Source: Burkholderiales bacterium
GTDB taxonomy: Bacteria > Pseudomonadota > Gammaproteobacteria > Burkholderiales > Casimicrobiaceae
Reading direction: 5' to 3'
Length of the DNA: 64,000 nt
Assembly: GCA_015075645.1 (NCBI GenBank)
Contig: JABTUF010000006.1
Span: forward strand, 124,001-188,000
Position numbers and translations under genes: made by a program. Shown in pieces: positions 1,673 to 52,160 of this stretch. Below the pieces are notes generated by a model. It had not been told where the DNA came from. It worked only from the letters and a program-made list of their open reading frames with translations, and ran no database searches. Each line of letters opens with the position of its first letter. Position 1 is the stretch's first letter.

Positions 1673-1861
1673 CGTCGGGCTGAAGCCCGACCCACCACCC
1701 TCCCCGTGGGTCGGCCTTCAGGCCGACACGATCCATCGCATCACCACCCGCCCCGTCGGGCTGAAGCCCGACCCACAGGGAAGGCGAAAGCCGCGGATCG
1801 CTCGTAGGTACGGCTTCAGCCGGACGATTCTCCCGCCGCCACCGGATACTCCGGCGCCGCC
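1673..1861. repeat. REP-like palindrome cluster with one terminal module
   Basis: Between the convergent ends of two genes lie three GTGG-type palindromes: reverse 1673-1695, forward 1706-1729, reverse 1754-1776. A GTAG-headed copy follows at 1804-1826. Each is a head (GTGGG or GTAGG) plus a palindrome of the type TCGGGCTTCAGCCCGA. Bases 1832-1861 (CGCCGCCACCGG then ACTCCGGCGCC) match the right-hand terminal module of the composite element at 52085-52126. This looks like a decayed relative of the elements at 48154 and 51887. REP-like sequences commonly sit at converging 3' ends. Confidence 0.8.
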
Positions 1862-3428: not shown

Positions 3429-3727
3429 CGACGTCTCGCCGCCCGCGTCGCTACGCCGCCTGCGCTGCGAAGCGCGCGAGCGGTTCCGCGATGCCCGACG
3501 ACGTGCCGGTCGGGTGCGCCTCGAACATCACGCCGCCTCGCTTTCTGCGTCGCTGCACCGCGCATACCACGCATACCACGCATACCACGCATACCACGCA
3601 TACCGCTCCTGCCGCTCCTACGCTTCTATCGTATCCACCGCCTGCGCTGCGGAGCGCGTGAGCGGCGGTCGCGCAGCGAACGTCCGCTCGACGCCGCTCC
3701 CGGTCGCGCCGCCGCCCGTTCGAAGCT
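3429..3727. other. Intergenic region with short repeats
   Basis: No convincing gene lies between the SDR and dsbA. The region holds a 27-bp imperfect direct repeat (3457-3483 and 3639-3665, two mismatches) and, between the copies, five tandem copies of a 9-bp unit at 3561-3605. The direct repeats could mark a decayed insertion or local duplication. No clear terminator is seen after dsbA. Confidence 0.6.
3561..3605. repeat. 9-bp tandem repeat, five copies
   Basis: The unit CGCATACCA is repeated four times exactly (3561, 3570, 3579, 3588) and a fifth time with a final G (3597-3605). It lies in non-coding sequence downstream of dsbA. A short perfect array like this is likely to vary in copy number by slippage. 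Confidence 0.95.
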
Positions 3728-16824: not shown

Positions 16825-17186
16825 CTTCGAGGTCCCCGTCGAGGTCCCACCACCGGCGCTCCACGGCCTCGAGCCGCGGTCCGGCGGGTCGTTTCGACCG
16901 ACCGGCACGGGCGCGAAGCTTGCTCGTGCGAACGGGTGGCGAAACCTTGGAATCCTACCCGGCTTGCTGCGTTGCGACAAGAAATGCCGGTCGTCCCCTG
17001 CCGATCTGCGCGCAACAGCGCCCGCCTGACGGCGGCCTGCGACCGCCTGAAAACCTTGCAGTGGCCCGCGACTTGGGCTCTAATCTGAACAGTTTGGGCT
17101 ATCTCGTTGTTGCAGCGTCCAAATCGGCCTTTTGGCGCCATCGCCTCCGGCCCCGCCCTCAAGACAACGTCATCAGGAATCGCGCC
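16825..17186. other. Divergent intergenic region, gltB / Ig-like lipoprotein
   Basis: Leader region for both flanking genes. Apart from the plus-strand promoter at 17056-17084 I see no gene, repeat or riboswitch. The part nearest gltB stays open in the gltB frame and may partly be coding if gltB starts further upstream. Confidence 0.5.
17056..17084 (+). promoter_or_regulatory. Sigma-70-type promoter of Ig-like lipoprotein
   Basis: TTGCAG (17056-17061) and TCTAAT (17079-17084) are separated by exactly 17 nt, each one mismatch or two from consensus. Transcription would begin near 17091, giving a leader of about 95 nt. Confidence 0.6.
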
Positions 17187-32556: not shown

Positions 32557-32646
32557 ACGGCGCCCGACGCGCCGCCCCTCAAAAACGCTGCCGCGCCTGT
32601 TCCCTGTTCCCTGTTCCCTGTTCCCTGTTCCCTGTTCCCTGTTCCC
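32557..32646. repeat. Solo terminal module plus (TGTTCCC)7 array
   Basis: Bases 32557-32576 (ACGGCGCCCGACGCGCCGCC) match the terminal module of the composite elements at 48934 and 52086 at 17-18 of 20 positions. About 20 nt on, TGTTCCC is repeated seven times without error (32598-32646). The array stops 5 nt before the protease stop codon at 32652-32654. No REP-like palindromes accompany it. Confidence 0.85.
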
Positions 32647-32651
32647 TGGAG

Positions 32652-36963: not shown

Positions 36964-37111
36964 CGCGCGCGCCGGGCCGCCCCAAGCGCGCGCGCCCCCT
37001 GGGGGGAGGCAACCGAAGGTTGCTTCGGGGGGAGGTCGCCCCGCGCGCGCCGGGCCGCCCCAAGCGCGCGCGCCCCCTCGGGGGAGGCAACCGAAGGTTG
37101 CTTCGGGGGGA
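36964..37111. repeat. 78-bp-period tandem duplication between rfbB and rfbA
   Basis: About 70 bp starting at 36964 (CGCGCGCGCCGGGCCGCCCC) recur at 37042 with a single visible mismatch, giving a 78-bp period. Each copy contains a long G/C stem and a small palindrome GCAACCGAAGGTTGC. It fills almost the whole 165-bp gap between two genes that are otherwise co-oriented. Sequences of this general look are familiar as dispersed repeats in Burkholderiales-type genomes. Confidence 0.85.
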
Positions 37112-48153: not shown

Positions 48154-49001
48154 CTCAGGAATCAGGAATCAGAGGACAGGGAACAGATGCGGCGGTGATT
48201 TCGGTGGCGGCGCATCGAGCGCCGATGGGCGATCCCTGTGGGTCGGGCTTCAGCCCGACACGGTTCGCGCCGAGGCCGCGCAACGGCGTCGGCCTGAAGG
48301 CCGACCCACCGCCGCTCCCCCGTGGGTCGGGCTTAAGCCCGACACGGTTCGCGCCGAGGCGATGGAAGGGCGTCGGCCTGAAGGCCGACCCACCGCCGCT
48401 CCCCCGTGGGTCGGGCTTCAGCCCGACACGGTTCGCGCCGAGGCCGCGCAACGGCGTCGGCCTGAAGGCCGACCCACCGCCGCTCCCCCGTGGGTCGGGC
48501 TTCAGCCCGACGCGGTTCGCGCGCCGAGGCGATGGAAGGCGTCGGCCTCAAGGCCGACCCACCACCGCTCCCCCGTGGGTCGGGCTTGAGCCCGACACGG
48601 TTCGCGCCGAGGCGCGGCAACGGCGTCGGCCTCAAGGCCGACCCACGCACGCTCCCCCGTGGGTCGGGCTTCAGCCCGACAACGCTCGCGCCGAGGCCGC
48701 GCGCAACGGCGTCGGCCTGAAGGCCGACCCACCGCGCTCCCTCGCGGCCGGCTTCAGCCCGGGCGCGCATCGCGCCGAGCCACGCGCACGGCGTCGGCCT
48801 GAAGGCCGACCCACCACCTGACGGGGTTCGCCGCGTCGATGCAGTTTCCTTGTAGGTCAGGCTTTCAGCCTGACGCCCGTGGGAGGACCGTGGCGCAAGG
48901 CGTCCGGCTGAAGCCGGACCCACGAGGTGGCTGCAACGGCGCTTCATGCGCCGCCACCGTAAACACCGCCGTGACTGACAACTGTCAACTGCCAACTGAC
49001 T
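48154..49001. mobile_element. Composite palindromic element 1 (heptamers, terminal inverted modules, REP array)
   Basis: From outside in: heptamers (GGAATCA, GGAATCA, GAGGACA, GGGAACA at 48158-48185) touching the RND start codon; a module at 48189-48227; an array of REP-like palindromes (48238-48923); an inverted module (48934-48972); heptamers (ACTGACA, ACTGTCA, ACTGCCA, ACTGACT at 48974-49001) that contain the stop codon of the fusion-protein gene. The two modules agree at about 32 of 39 positions when one is inverted. No coding sequence is present, so it is non-autonomous if mobile. Element 2 at 51887 shares the design. Confidence 0.7.
48238..48923. repeat. REP/BIME-type array, eight inverted pairs, ~84-bp period
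   Basis: Forward copies GTGGGTCGGGCTTCAGCCCG start at 48238, 48322, 48406, 48490, 48575, 48659, with a degenerate one near 48744 and a GTAG-headed one at 48852. Reverse copies (CGTCGGCCTGAAGGCCGACC..) start at 48287, 48371, 48455, 48540, 48624, 48710, 48792 and 48901. Spacers are also conserved (GGTTCGCGCCGAGG; CGCCGCTCCCCC). Loop changes such as TTAA, TTGA and CTCA keep the palindromes intact. This is a bacterial interspersed mosaic element array amplified as a unit. Confidence 0.93.
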
Positions 49002-50166
49002 TCTGCTTGACCGCACGCGCCTCGGACGTCGGCGCCGGCGCCTTCACGAGCGCCGGCGCGCCCTCCTTGAGATTCTCGAAGCGCGTCGCGAGCACCGGCA
49101 GGTCCTTCGGGAGCGGCGTCTTCACTTCGACCAGACCCGCATCGTCGTCGCGCCGCCCGATCGTCACGATGCGGCGCGCGAGCTTCCCGCCGTCGACCAC
49201 CCAGACGTAGCTCTGCCCGGCCTCGGTGCGGACCGCGGAGGCGGGCAGCGTCGCCATCGGCGCGCTGGCGGCGAGCGCGATGCGGCCGTTGGCGAACATG
49301 CCGCTGCGCAGCGCCGCGTCCGGATTGCGCAGCGCGACGTAGACCATGATCGCGCGCGTGCCGGGTTCGGTCGCCGGATTGATGCGCGCGATGCGCCCGG
49401 CGAACTTGCGCTCGCCGAAGCCGTCGACCGCGAGTTCGACCGCCATGCCCGCCGCCAGCCCGGGCACGTCCACCGCGGGCACCAGCGCCTGCAACTCGAG
49501 GTCCGACAGGTCGACGACGGTCACGAGCGGCGCGTCCTGCGCGACCTTCTCGCCGCCCTGCACGTGCCGCTTGCCGACGATGCCCGCGATCGGCGCCACG
49601 ACCGTCGCGTCCTTGATGGCGTTGCGCGCGAGCAGCACCTGCGCTTCCATGCTCTTGACGTTGCCTTTCGCGACGTCGTAGCCGGATTGCGAACTGTCGA
49701 ACGCGGTCTGCGAGATGAACTTCTCGTTCAGCAGCTTGACGTTGTTGGCGCGGGTCTTCTCGGCGAGCGCCATCTGCGCCTTCGCGCTCTCGAGCGCGCC
49801 CTGGCGTTCGATCAGCTTCGCGTCGAGATCGGCGGTGTCGATGCGAGCGAGCACCTGCCCGGCCCGCACGGCCTCGCCTTCGCGCACCAGCACCTCCCGG
49901 ACATCGCCCGGGACCTTGGCTTTCACCGTCGCCTGGTGGACCGGCGTCAGCGTTCCGGAGATCGGCAGCCAGCGCGACATCGCCGCCGGCGTCAGGTAGG
50001 CGAGGTCACCCTCGCCGAACTGCAGCGGCACCGGCGGGCCGCTGGCGGCCTTCGCGGACGTGCCCGGCGCCTTCACCCACGGCCGCGCCGCGAACAGGGC
50101 GGCCGAGGCCGCCGCCACGATGGCGAGTACGACGAGCGCGCGGCGCCCGGTGATGCGCAGACCCAT
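48985..50166 (-). CDS. RND efflux membrane-fusion protein (periplasmic adaptor)
   Basis: The 393-residue protein has an N-terminal membrane anchor (ALVVLAIVAAASAALFAA), a barrel-sandwich half (VKAKVPGDVREVLVREGEAVRAGQVLARIDTADLDAKL), an alpha-helical hairpin (residues about 95-170), the second lipoyl half (IVGKRHVQGGEKVAQDAPL), a beta-barrel (INPATEPGTRAIMVYVAL) and a membrane-proximal domain. It bridges the RND pump to TolC. The final residues SVGS and the stop codon are read from a 7-bp repeat array, so the native C-terminus may have been replaced. It is separated from its pump gene by an 831-bp repeat element. Confidence 0.92.
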   Translation of the reverse strand: MGLRITGRRALVVLAIVAAASAALFAARPWVKAPGTSAKAASGPPVPLQFGEGDLAYLTPAAMSRWLPISGTLTPVHQATVKAKVPGDVREVLVREGEAVRAGQVLARIDTADLDAKLIERQGALESAKAQMALAEKTRANNVKLLNEKFISQTAFDSSQSGYDVAKGNVKSMEAQVLLARNAIKDATVVAPIAGIVGKRHVQGGEKVAQDAPLVTVVDLSDLELQALVPAVDVPGLAAGMAVELAVDGFGERKFAGRIARINPATEPGTRAIMVYVALRNPDAALRSGMFANGRIALAASAPMATLPASAVRTEAGQSYVWVVDGGKLARRIVTIGRRDDDAGLVEVKTPLPKDLPVLATRFENLKEGAPALVKAPAPTSEARAVKQKSVGS

Positions 50167-50493
50167 GGTTTCCCTTTCCCCCGGTCCGGTGTTGCCGGCC
50201 GCTGGTGATTCCCGACGTCCGGCCCGTTCCTGGCGGTTGGACGCGGCAGGACCGCCGTCCGGATTCAGGCTCCGGCGGCGCCCGTCAATGTCGCATTGCT
50301 GCGCCCCGACGCCCAGCCGCAGCGACGAGGCGCCCCGGGGCCCGACCGAGCGCGCCCGGCCCCGACGGGTCGCGCCGGTGCCCGGGCCGCTCGCCGGCCT
50401 TCGGAACCGCCATTTGACACCAGAAATGGCCCCTGCGACAATTTTATGTTTCCCCTTTCCACCTGTTCCGGACATCTCCGGAGGAGCCCCCAG
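50167..50493. other. Divergent region, membrane-fusion protein / livK
   Basis: A GC-rich non-coding region carrying the leaders of both genes. GGGAAAGGGAAACC precedes the fusion-protein ATG. Apart from the livK promoter I see nothing that can be named. Confidence 0.5.
50414..50442 (+). promoter_or_regulatory. Sigma-70 promoter of livK
   Basis: TTGACA (50414-50419, perfect) and GACAAT (50437-50442) are separated by 17 nt, in a locally AT-rich patch 52 nt before the livK ATG. Confidence 0.65.
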
Positions 50494-51777
50494 ATGAACA
50501 CCCCGAAGAAGCTCGGCCTGACGCTCATCGCGGCCGCGCTCGTCACCGTCTACGGCTGCGGCAAGAAGGAAGAGCCGAAGAAGGCCGAAGCCCCGAAAGC
50601 CGCGGTCGAAGACGTCGTCGTCGTCAAGATCGGCCATGCCGGCCCGCTGACCGGCGGCATCGCGCACCTCGGCAAGGACGACGAGAACGGCGCCCATCTC
50701 GCGGTCGACGAAGCCACCGCGAAGAAGCTCAAGATCGGCGGCAAGACGGTCAAGTTCGAACTGATGAGCGAAGACGACCAGGCCGACCCGAAGATGGGTC
50801 CGACGATCGCCCAGAAGTTCGTCGACGCGAAGGTCGCGGGCGTCGCCGGCCACCTGAACTCCGGCGTCACGATCCCGGCGTCGGCGGTCTACAACCAGGC
50901 CGGCATCCCGATGATCTCGGGCTCGGCGACCAATCCGAAGCTCACCGAACAGGGCTTCAAGAACATCTTCCGCACGGTCGGCCGCGACGACCAGCAGGGC
51001 CCCGCGGTCGCTCAGTACCTCGCCGCGCAGAAGATCAAGAAGATCGCGATCGCCGACGACGCGACGGCGTACGGCGAAGGCCTCGCGAACGAAGTCGAGA
51101 AGACGCTGAAAGCGGCGGGCGTCCAGGTCGTGGCGCGCGAGAAGGCCACCGACAAGACGACCGACTTCAAGGCGATCCTCACCAAGATCAAGGGCAAGTC
51201 GCCCGACGCGGTGTTCTACGGCGGCATGGACGCGACCGGCGGCCCGATGATCAAGCAGGCGCGCGAACTCGGCATCAAGTCGGCGTTCGCGTTCGGCGAC
51301 GGCGCGTGCACCGACGAGATGGCGAAGCTCGCGGGCGCGGCGGCCGAAGGCCTCATCTGCTCGCAGGCGGGCCTGCCGGCATCGGCGGCCAGCAAGGAGT
51401 TCAACGACGCGTTCAAGGCGAAGTACGGCGAAGTGAAGCAGTACGCCCCGTTCTTCTACGACGCGGTGAACCTGATGATCGCCGCGATGCAGAAGGCGGA
51501 CTCGACCGATCCGGCCAAGTACCTGCCCGAACTGCAGAAGATCAGCCACAACGGCGCGACCGGCAAGATCGAGTTCGACGAGAAGGGCGATCGCAAGAAC
51601 GCCGAGATCACGATCTTCCAGCTGAAGAACGGCAAGGTCGAGCCGATCGCCGTCGTCCAGGCCGGCAAGGCCACCCCGTTCGCCGAATTCGTCAGCGCCA
51701 TGGGCTCGGCATCCGCGGCGCCCGCTGCCGCGCCGGCGACCCCGCCGGCGCCGGCCCCCGAGGCGCCGAAGAAGTAA
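50494..51777 (+). CDS. livK: Branched-chain amino acid ABC transporter substrate-binding protein
   Basis: The 427-residue protein has the Leu/Ile/Val-binding fold: VKIGHAGPLTGGIAHLGKDDENG, MSEDDQADPKMGPTIAQKFVD, VAGHLNSGVTIPASAVYNQAGIPMISGSATNP, and FFYDAVNLMIAAM. Its signal ends VTVYGC|GKKEEPKK, so Cys 22 may be lipidated, although the lipobox is not ideal and most Gram-negative LivK are soluble. A Lys/Glu/Pro linker follows, and an Ala/Pro tail ends the protein. GGAGGAG is the ribosome-binding site. It has its own promoter and terminator and is split from livHMGF by a repeat element. Confidence 0.92.
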   Translation: MNTPKKLGLTLIAAALVTVYGCGKKEEPKKAEAPKAAVEDVVVVKIGHAGPLTGGIAHLGKDDENGAHLAVDEATAKKLKIGGKTVKFELMSEDDQADPKMGPTIAQKFVDAKVAGVAGHLNSGVTIPASAVYNQAGIPMISGSATNPKLTEQGFKNIFRTVGRDDQQGPAVAQYLAAQKIKKIAIADDATAYGEGLANEVEKTLKAAGVQVVAREKATDKTTDFKAILTKIKGKSPDAVFYGGMDATGGPMIKQARELGIKSAFAFGDGACTDEMAKLAGAAAEGLICSQAGLPASAASKEFNDAFKAKYGEVKQYAPFFYDAVNLMIAAMQKADSTDPAKYLPELQKISHNGATGKIEFDEKGDRKNAEITIFQLKNGKVEPIAVVQAGKATPFAEFVSAMGSASAAPAAAPATPPAPAPEAPKK

Positions 51778-51795
51778 CCGCGCTTCCCTGCACCG

Positions 51796-51829
51796 AAAGG
51801 CGGCGCCTCGTACAGGCGCCGCTTTTTTT
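51796..51829 (+). terminator. Intrinsic terminator of livK
   Basis: GCGGCGCCT and AGGCGCCGC pair around CGTAC, the flanking AAAG pairs into the T run, and seven T follow. Transcription from the livK promoter should largely end here, so livHMGF needs another promoter or read-through. Confidence 0.9.
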
Positions 51830-51886
51830 CGCCTGCCGGTGTTGCCGGCGGCGCGGGCTCGCTCCACAATCGCGCGGTTGTCGGGA

Positions 51887-52160
51887 GTCAGTTGGCAGTT
51901 GACAGTTGACAGTCGACAGTAGCGTCGGCGATTCCGGTGGCGGCGCATTGAGCGCCGATGCAGTGTCCTGGTAGGTCAGGCTTCAGCGCCGATGCAGTGT
52001 CCTGGTAGGTCAGGCTTCAGCCTGACGGGGTTCGCCCCACCGATGAGATAGACGTCCGGCTGAAGCCGGACCTACGACCAACGCGCAACGGCGCTCGATG
52101 CGCCGCCATCGAAGACTCCGGCGCCACTGACAACTGCCAACTGACAACTGTCAACTGAAC
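51887..52160. mobile_element. Composite palindromic element 2
   Basis: Same design as element 1. Left heptamers GTCAGTT, GGCAGTT, GACAGTT, GACAGTC, GACAGTA (51887-51921); left module (CGGTGGCGGCGCATTGAGCG.. at 51935-51960); a GTAG-headed palindrome (52005-52027) and a reverse one (52053-52075); inverted right module (52085-52126); right heptamers ACTGACA, ACTGCCA, ACTGACA, ACTGTCA, ACTGAAC (52126-52160), one base before the livH start codon. A 34-bp tandem duplication (51953-51986, 51987-52020) has copied part of the first palindrome. Non-coding. Confidence 0.7.

Follow-up and report, generated by a model that had tools for sequence, protein, structure and literature searches.

The inverted ends of two palindromic elements in the window, by which we mean the whole analysed stretch of 64,000 nt (positions 124001–188000 of contig C6 in a 4.39-Mb genome of 14 contigs), are built from a cassette of about 70 bp, consisting of a hairpin module, a spacer that holds it at a fixed distance, and a heptamer array reading outward. 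On the evidence set out below, there is about an even chance that this cassette is a non-autonomous dispersed repeat that has repeatedly been placed at gene edges with its array toward the gene. Under such a model, a cassette would come to lie at the edge of a coding sequence with its array directed toward the gene, and two cassettes facing two genes across one intergenic gap would give rise to the inverted "ends" of the window elements. REPs, presumably served by the resident RAYT, would sit between the facing cassettes. Movement would probably proceed via a single-stranded hairpin and a putative enzyme, and array units may turn over by slippage and conversion.

The cassette in the window and beyond it

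A preliminary description proposed two elements with a nested layout, at 48154–49001 and 51887–52160; both are present, with ends as claimed. On the left of element 1, reading on the minus strand, the hairpin module GGCGCTCGATGCGCCGCC (48206–48223) is followed by a 19-nt spacer (48187–48205) and an array of TTCC, TCCT, ATTC and ATTC units between CTGs (48156–48186). The central REP/BIME cluster, with no assigned strand, comprises GTGGGTCGGGCTTCAGCCCGAC-type palindromes (48234–48923), with an 84-bp unit repeated 6.9 times in tandem at 48234–48815 and an additional REP pair as far as 48923. On the right, the module GGCGCTTCATGCGCCGCC (48938–48955), a 19-nt spacer (48956–48974) and the array (48975–49005) follow on the plus strand. 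Element 1 shows both kinds of gene edge: 2 nt separate the left array from the ATG (48153) of an RND-pump gene, and the right array supplies the in-frame stop codon (48985–48987) of an HlyD-type gene. In element 2, the left end lies on the minus strand (module GGCGCTCAATGCGCCGCC, 51939–51956; 19-nt spacer, 51920–51938; array of 6 units, 51875–51919) and faces the end of a livK-type gene about 100 nt away. The centre (51957–52089) is an unstranded REP pair (GTAGGTC...) that includes a 34-bp partial tandem duplication, and the plus-strand right end (module GGCGCTCGATGCGCCGCC, 52090–52107; 19-nt spacer, 52108–52126; array, 52127–52157) lies 4 nt from the GTG (52162) of a livH-type permease gene.

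Two partial ends had also been described. That at 32557–32646 is in fact a single complete cassette on the plus strand (32559–32648; module GGCGCCCGACGCGCCGCC, 20-nt spacer, seven TGTTCCC-type units), located 3 nt from a stop codon. The other (1832–1861, plus strand) is only a remnant of spacer-like sequence, with no hairpin and no clean array, adjoining a REP cluster. Two further repeats were seen in the window: a GC-rich 78-bp unit containing GGGGGAGGCAACCGAAGGTTGCTTCGGGGGGAGG, in about 2 copies of 98% identity (36964–37111), and the tandem nonamer ACCACGCAT, repeated 5.3 times (3557–3604).

Within the window, the module 18-mer occurs 6 times at up to 3 mismatches versus 2.2 expected, which is weak evidence. 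Genome-wide counts are decisive for a non-chance origin: a pattern of 30 bases, 27 of them specified, gave 88 matches in this genome and 0 with the reversed pattern as control. The same pattern matched 26 times in the relative G001, 11 times in G019 and 0–2 times in other members of the genus, with 0 matches in every genome searched outside the genus. Among the fetched loci of this genome, 84 ends carry the hairpin module together with an array of at least three anchors, a census that combines pattern matches with fetched loci and under-counts copies with more than 2 module mismatches. Thus, the cassette is far commoner than the window suggests, and the recurrence of one layout at 84 ends bears out the earlier view of a defined unit as opposed to chance repeats. 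The stretch between hairpin and array, of sequence type ACCGGAGACTCCGGCGCCA, is GC-rich as described, but its length is 19 nt rather than about 18 nt and is nearly invariant (exactly 19 nt in 77 of 84 ends).

The first 15 nt of the 18-nt module GGCGCTCRATGCGCCGCC form a 5-bp hairpin of the form GGCGC-NNRAY-GCGCC (5-bp stem, 5-nt loop), followed by GCC and preceded by GCAAC/GCATC or CCC. A scan anchored on 175 arrays of the genus, which accepted 5-bp stems with 5-nt loops irrespective of offset and made no use of the module sequence, found 86 perfect stems at offset 22, versus 9 at the next best offset. Among arms that do not start with GGCGC, there were 9 perfect pairings versus a mean of 0.63 and a maximum of 4 in 1000 shuffles; the covarying arms were CGCGC/GCGCG (seven times) and GGCGG/CCGCC (twice). 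Such covariation, together with the peak at a single offset, supports the hairpin as a conserved feature of the module, whether as DNA or as RNA. A second hairpin, in the spacer (CCGGA..TCCGG), was considered as a conserved structure and rejected, as some copies have it and many do not.

Array polarity, gene edges and orthologous sites

The array units are anchored on CTG, with CTGTCAA or CTGTCCT proximal and CTGACTC distal. This order is strongly polarised: 45 arrays begin with a unit in which a letter other than A follows CTG and end with one in which A does, versus 4 with the reverse (p=8e-10). Four units is the commonest length (44 of 80 arrays), and the AA class, which reads CAGTTGA on the G strand and has no G-tracts, accounts for 48 of 79 arrays. 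The heptamer pattern matched 273 times in this genome versus 62 for the control, and heptamer arrays were found in 20 of 22 genomes of the genus, mostly without the hairpin module. Neighbouring arrays diverge from one another far more often than they converge (33 versus 1 in the genus; outside it, 16 versus 0 in Moorena and 4 versus 1 in Xanthomonadales). In the sole convergent case of the genus, two arrays face each other across a gap of about 75 bp whose sequence points to a probable tRNA gene.

Related layouts were seen around other cores. At C1:120691–124946 of this genome (loci L171, L175 and L177), palindromes of about 50 bp, e.g., CGATGCGCAGCGCATCG, adjoin apparent tRNA genes and are bounded by TTA/TAA and outward TGACAAC-type arrays; their array polarity is that of the cassette, and the hairpin differs. 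In Lysobacter sp. SJ66 (L297, 428–684), a long hairpin (GTCATCCCGAGCACAGCGAGGGACCTGC...) lies between diverging heptamer arrays, with an unrelated core and the same array layout.

Genes were called by a simple ORF/GC3 method, which gave a facing gene for 70 ends. A distance of 0–7 nt separates 16 stop-facing ends from their stop codon. Of the start-facing ends, 12 are 7 nt or less away from the start codon, although the choice of start codon is biased toward short distances, a bias from which the stop-facing result is free. In total, about a third of the ends lie 7 nt or less from a start or stop, whereas only about 4% of intergenic bases are expected that near a stop and about 4% that near a start. 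At start and stop sides alike, the C-rich strand of the array reads toward the adjacent ORF.

These gene edges were compared with orthologous sites in relatives, whose assemblies are mostly fragmented, with contig ends often falling within the repeats. The element 1 site is filled in G001 and G019; in most relatives the gap holds neither array nor module, and in many of them it is shorter than 135 nt, down to 15 nt. Arrays also occur at the same spot, against the same ATG, in G010 and G003, whereas their sisters G007 and G009 have none. At the element 2 site, G001 carries one cassette, G019, G002 and G015 carry arrays only, and most others carry nothing. At three further sites (A, C and D), modules or decayed forms of them are found in this genome (G000), G001 and G019; at a fourth (B), they are found in G000 and G019, the contig of G001 being interrupted at this point. 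Clearly empty sites are B in G015 (gap of 30 nt) and D in G002 (gap of 48 nt). Thus, filled sites do have empty counterparts, contrary to what simple descent of the whole region would leave. In a rough tree (about 1.2 kb), G000, G001, G019 and G004 form a group, G010 and G003 fall elsewhere, and G002 and G015 form their own pair. The presence of arrays at the same edges in separate tree groups makes parallel, apparently independent arrival likely. At the element 1 site of G003 (C243, near 17052–17089, L139), the units against that same ATG are of the GGGAATC type, i.e., the Xanthomonas heptamer.

By inspection, the array units at shared sites differ by species (TCAA types in this genome, ATTC/TCCT types in G001), in a manner that looks like unit turnover within each genome. 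Neither a target-site duplication nor an excision product was seen on comparing empty with filled sites, where the intergenic DNA is too diverged for base-exact junctions. At site C, a CGAATCCTGCTAGCCT block between two cassettes is common to G000, G001 and G019; the idea that it is a retained native promoter was left as unproven, since empty relatives show no significant match to it.

Also by inspection, modules at shared sites look nearly unchanged, and most of the intervening DNA cannot be aligned, a pattern that might reflect selection and not mobility. It is therefore worth considering that the cassettes are functional gene-edge features, kept by selection for an effect on mRNA ends or for protein binding, with their spread being secondary. 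The strong gene-edge placement is in keeping with such a role, and regulation has been proposed for the TAACTGA arrays of other bacteria (MacGregor, 2015; PMC4679880). We nevertheless consider a primary function unlikely: one orientation rule holds at starts and stops, so that no single mRNA role fits both, and presence across relatives is patchy. Nor does Rfam contain a corresponding family, the only matches being weak miRNA hits, far below the cutoff, on the REP array. In addition, the arrays are no less structured than shuffled sequence (-3.46 versus -2.59 kcal/mol), a result that also led us to reject the array as an unstructured linker keeping hairpins off the ribosome. Two other roles were discarded, namely G-quadruplex formation, as the commonest array unit lacks G-tracts, and three-frame stop codons, which by inspection hold for TCAA units and fail for TCCT and ACTC units.

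A further alternative gives precedence to the arrays: old heptamer arrays at CDS edges, into or beside which hairpin elements and REPs were later inserted. Arrays without the module, both across most of the genus and in distant phyla, would be explained in this way, as would the array-only element 2 sites. However, an array split by an insertion would retain two halves reading in one direction, and the arrays diverge by 33 to 1; the invariance of the 19-nt spacing argues against it as well. We regard this order of events as highly unlikely.

Cassette pairs, REPs and the resident RAYT

To define the unit, an inverted partner was sought within 400 bp of each of the 84 ends. An inverted module and array were present for 29 ends and an array-only partner for 8; 4 ends were tandem inner copies, and 43 were single, 16 of these having no REP on the inner side. 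Tandem copies are spaced 73 or 66 bp apart, a difference of one heptamer. Because about half of the ends are single and tandem copies recur at these spacings, the cassette of about 70 bp was taken as the unit.

A two-ended unit remains a serious rival. Here, a palindromic MITE (array, hairpin, core, hairpin, array) would move whole, single ends would be its decayed halves, and the core, a REPIN or another sequence, would have been inserted later. The 29 ends whose inverted partner is intact, and spacings that cluster at 98–100 bp in several REP-cored pairs, imply that a two-ended unit may also be amplified. Partner ends tend to share an array class (12 of 15), slightly above expectation (p=0.03 to 0.12), and at the element 1 site the right array of G001 has the same unit order as the left array of G000. 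A precedent exists in Anabaena variabilis, where REP dimers of the GTAG-15 family are nested in long palindromes (Di Nocera et al., 2013; PMC3733652). The resemblance lies in a REP pair inside an outer inverted repeat; unlike the present case, the outer repeat of GTAG-15 is one long palindrome, with no heptamer arrays reported. Against the MITE stand the single ends, the same-direction tandem cassettes, and the two arrays of element 1, which differ from each other in G000. On balance, a two-ended unit is possible, though we think it improbable.

The inner GTGG/GTAG palindromes, described earlier as REP-like, are indeed REPs and have a cognate RAYT: they have a GTAG/GTGG head and an imperfectly palindromic, high-copy sequence arranged in inverted pairs, in agreement with REP/REPIN systems (PMC3116915; PMC3733652; PMC2817692). 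GTRGGTCNGGC-type REPs number 459 in this genome versus 0 for the control, 419 in G019 and 1 in G001. A RAYT gene (PF01797) at C1:34721 lies within a cluster of more than 20 REPs, as RAYT genes do in those systems, and is likely the owner of the REPs here. The outer cassette differs from REPs and REPINs in that it lacks the GTAG-type head and carries a heptamer tail.

The proposal of a single composite of module, heptamers and REP pairs, moved as a unit by the RAYT, fared worse. The REP cluster around C1:34721 does contain one module with its array. However, the 26 modules of G001, several of them arranged with arrays as inverted pairs, coexist with just one REP in the entire genome, which indicates that module and array need no REPs; the single ends without an inner REP are likewise module copies lacking a REP-like core. 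The REPs are judged to be passengers between cassettes. As for a transposase gene flanked by the module, one module does occur beside locus L102, and that is the only case; among the Y1 transposase genes retrieved from G001 and G019, none has a module next to it, and the module is not a terminal repeat of a transposase gene in the loci compared, as it would be in a RAYT-mobilised or TIRtron element. The composite is thus largely refuted, and we find it hard to credit. A second Y1 transposase gene of this genome, at approximately C2:478544–478873 (L101, C2:477044–480373), is flanked by the unrelated inverted repeats AAAGGGGTCAGACTCGATTGA. Y1 transposase genes of G002 and G009 are bordered by similar repeats, and in G015 such a repeat is present on one side.

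Relation to known repeats and significance

The small dispersed repeats (SDRs) of Nostoc are reportedly short, able to form hairpins, frequently located inside heptamer arrays and regarded as mobile. As so described, SDRs are embedded inside arrays, whereas the arrays here lie on one side only, at a fixed distance, which would set the two apart. The open literature searched yielded no description of heptamer arrays accompanied by a hairpin module at a fixed distance. What is new is therefore the combination of hairpin, fixed spacing and polarised array, as gene-facing heptamer arrays themselves are already known.

The closest array counterparts are the GGGNATC and GGGGA(C/T)T heptamers of Xanthomonas and Nostoc (Rehm et al., 2015; PMC4692102). 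According to the available portion of that paper, these arrays are intergenic and near ORFs, most commonly have four units, often form inverted pairs, and lie on the non-coding strand upstream of genes and on the coding strand downstream. The present arrays share the period of 7, the four-unit mode and a C-rich strand directed toward the ORF both upstream and downstream, and the unit CCGATTC differs by one transition from CTGATTC here. Unlike those arrays, as far as that portion describes them, the present ones are accompanied by a fixed-spacing hairpin module and REPs, and the G-quadruplex criterion applied there (a run of at least three G in each unit) fails for the commonest unit, the CAGTTGA strand (Rehm et al., 2015). 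Similarly, TAACTGA direct repeats occur in Beggiatoaceae, Cyanobacteria and Bacteroidetes, where the arrays read toward the start codon and most often end 1 nt before it (MacGregor, 2015; PMC4679880). TAACTGA resembles CAACTGT/CAACTGA of the present arrays, and polarity and gene-edge position are alike. However, the TAACTGA arrays are nearly free of inverted pairs and are mostly start-facing, whereas start and stop edges are about equally represented here; no module is reported for them in the accessible part of that account.

For gene-side heptamer arrays in unrelated bacteria, competing proposals have been put forward (G-quadruplexes, translational control), and no accepted origin was found in the literature. 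We tentatively suggest, as a possibility well short of probable, that the heptamer arrays facing genes in Xanthomonas, Nostoc/Moorena, Beggiatoaceae and the present genus are all tails of one broad class of minute, hairpin-cored mobile cassettes, which would insert specifically at the edges of coding sequences through an undescribed system that may be single-strand-based. The cassette provides a concrete unit to seek in other phyla, as well as a direct test of mobility, and two arrays facing two genes would be a simple explanation of the inverted array pairs already published. A type of repeat known from distant bacteria, and poorly understood there, is thereby extended to a case with a defined, polarised architecture.
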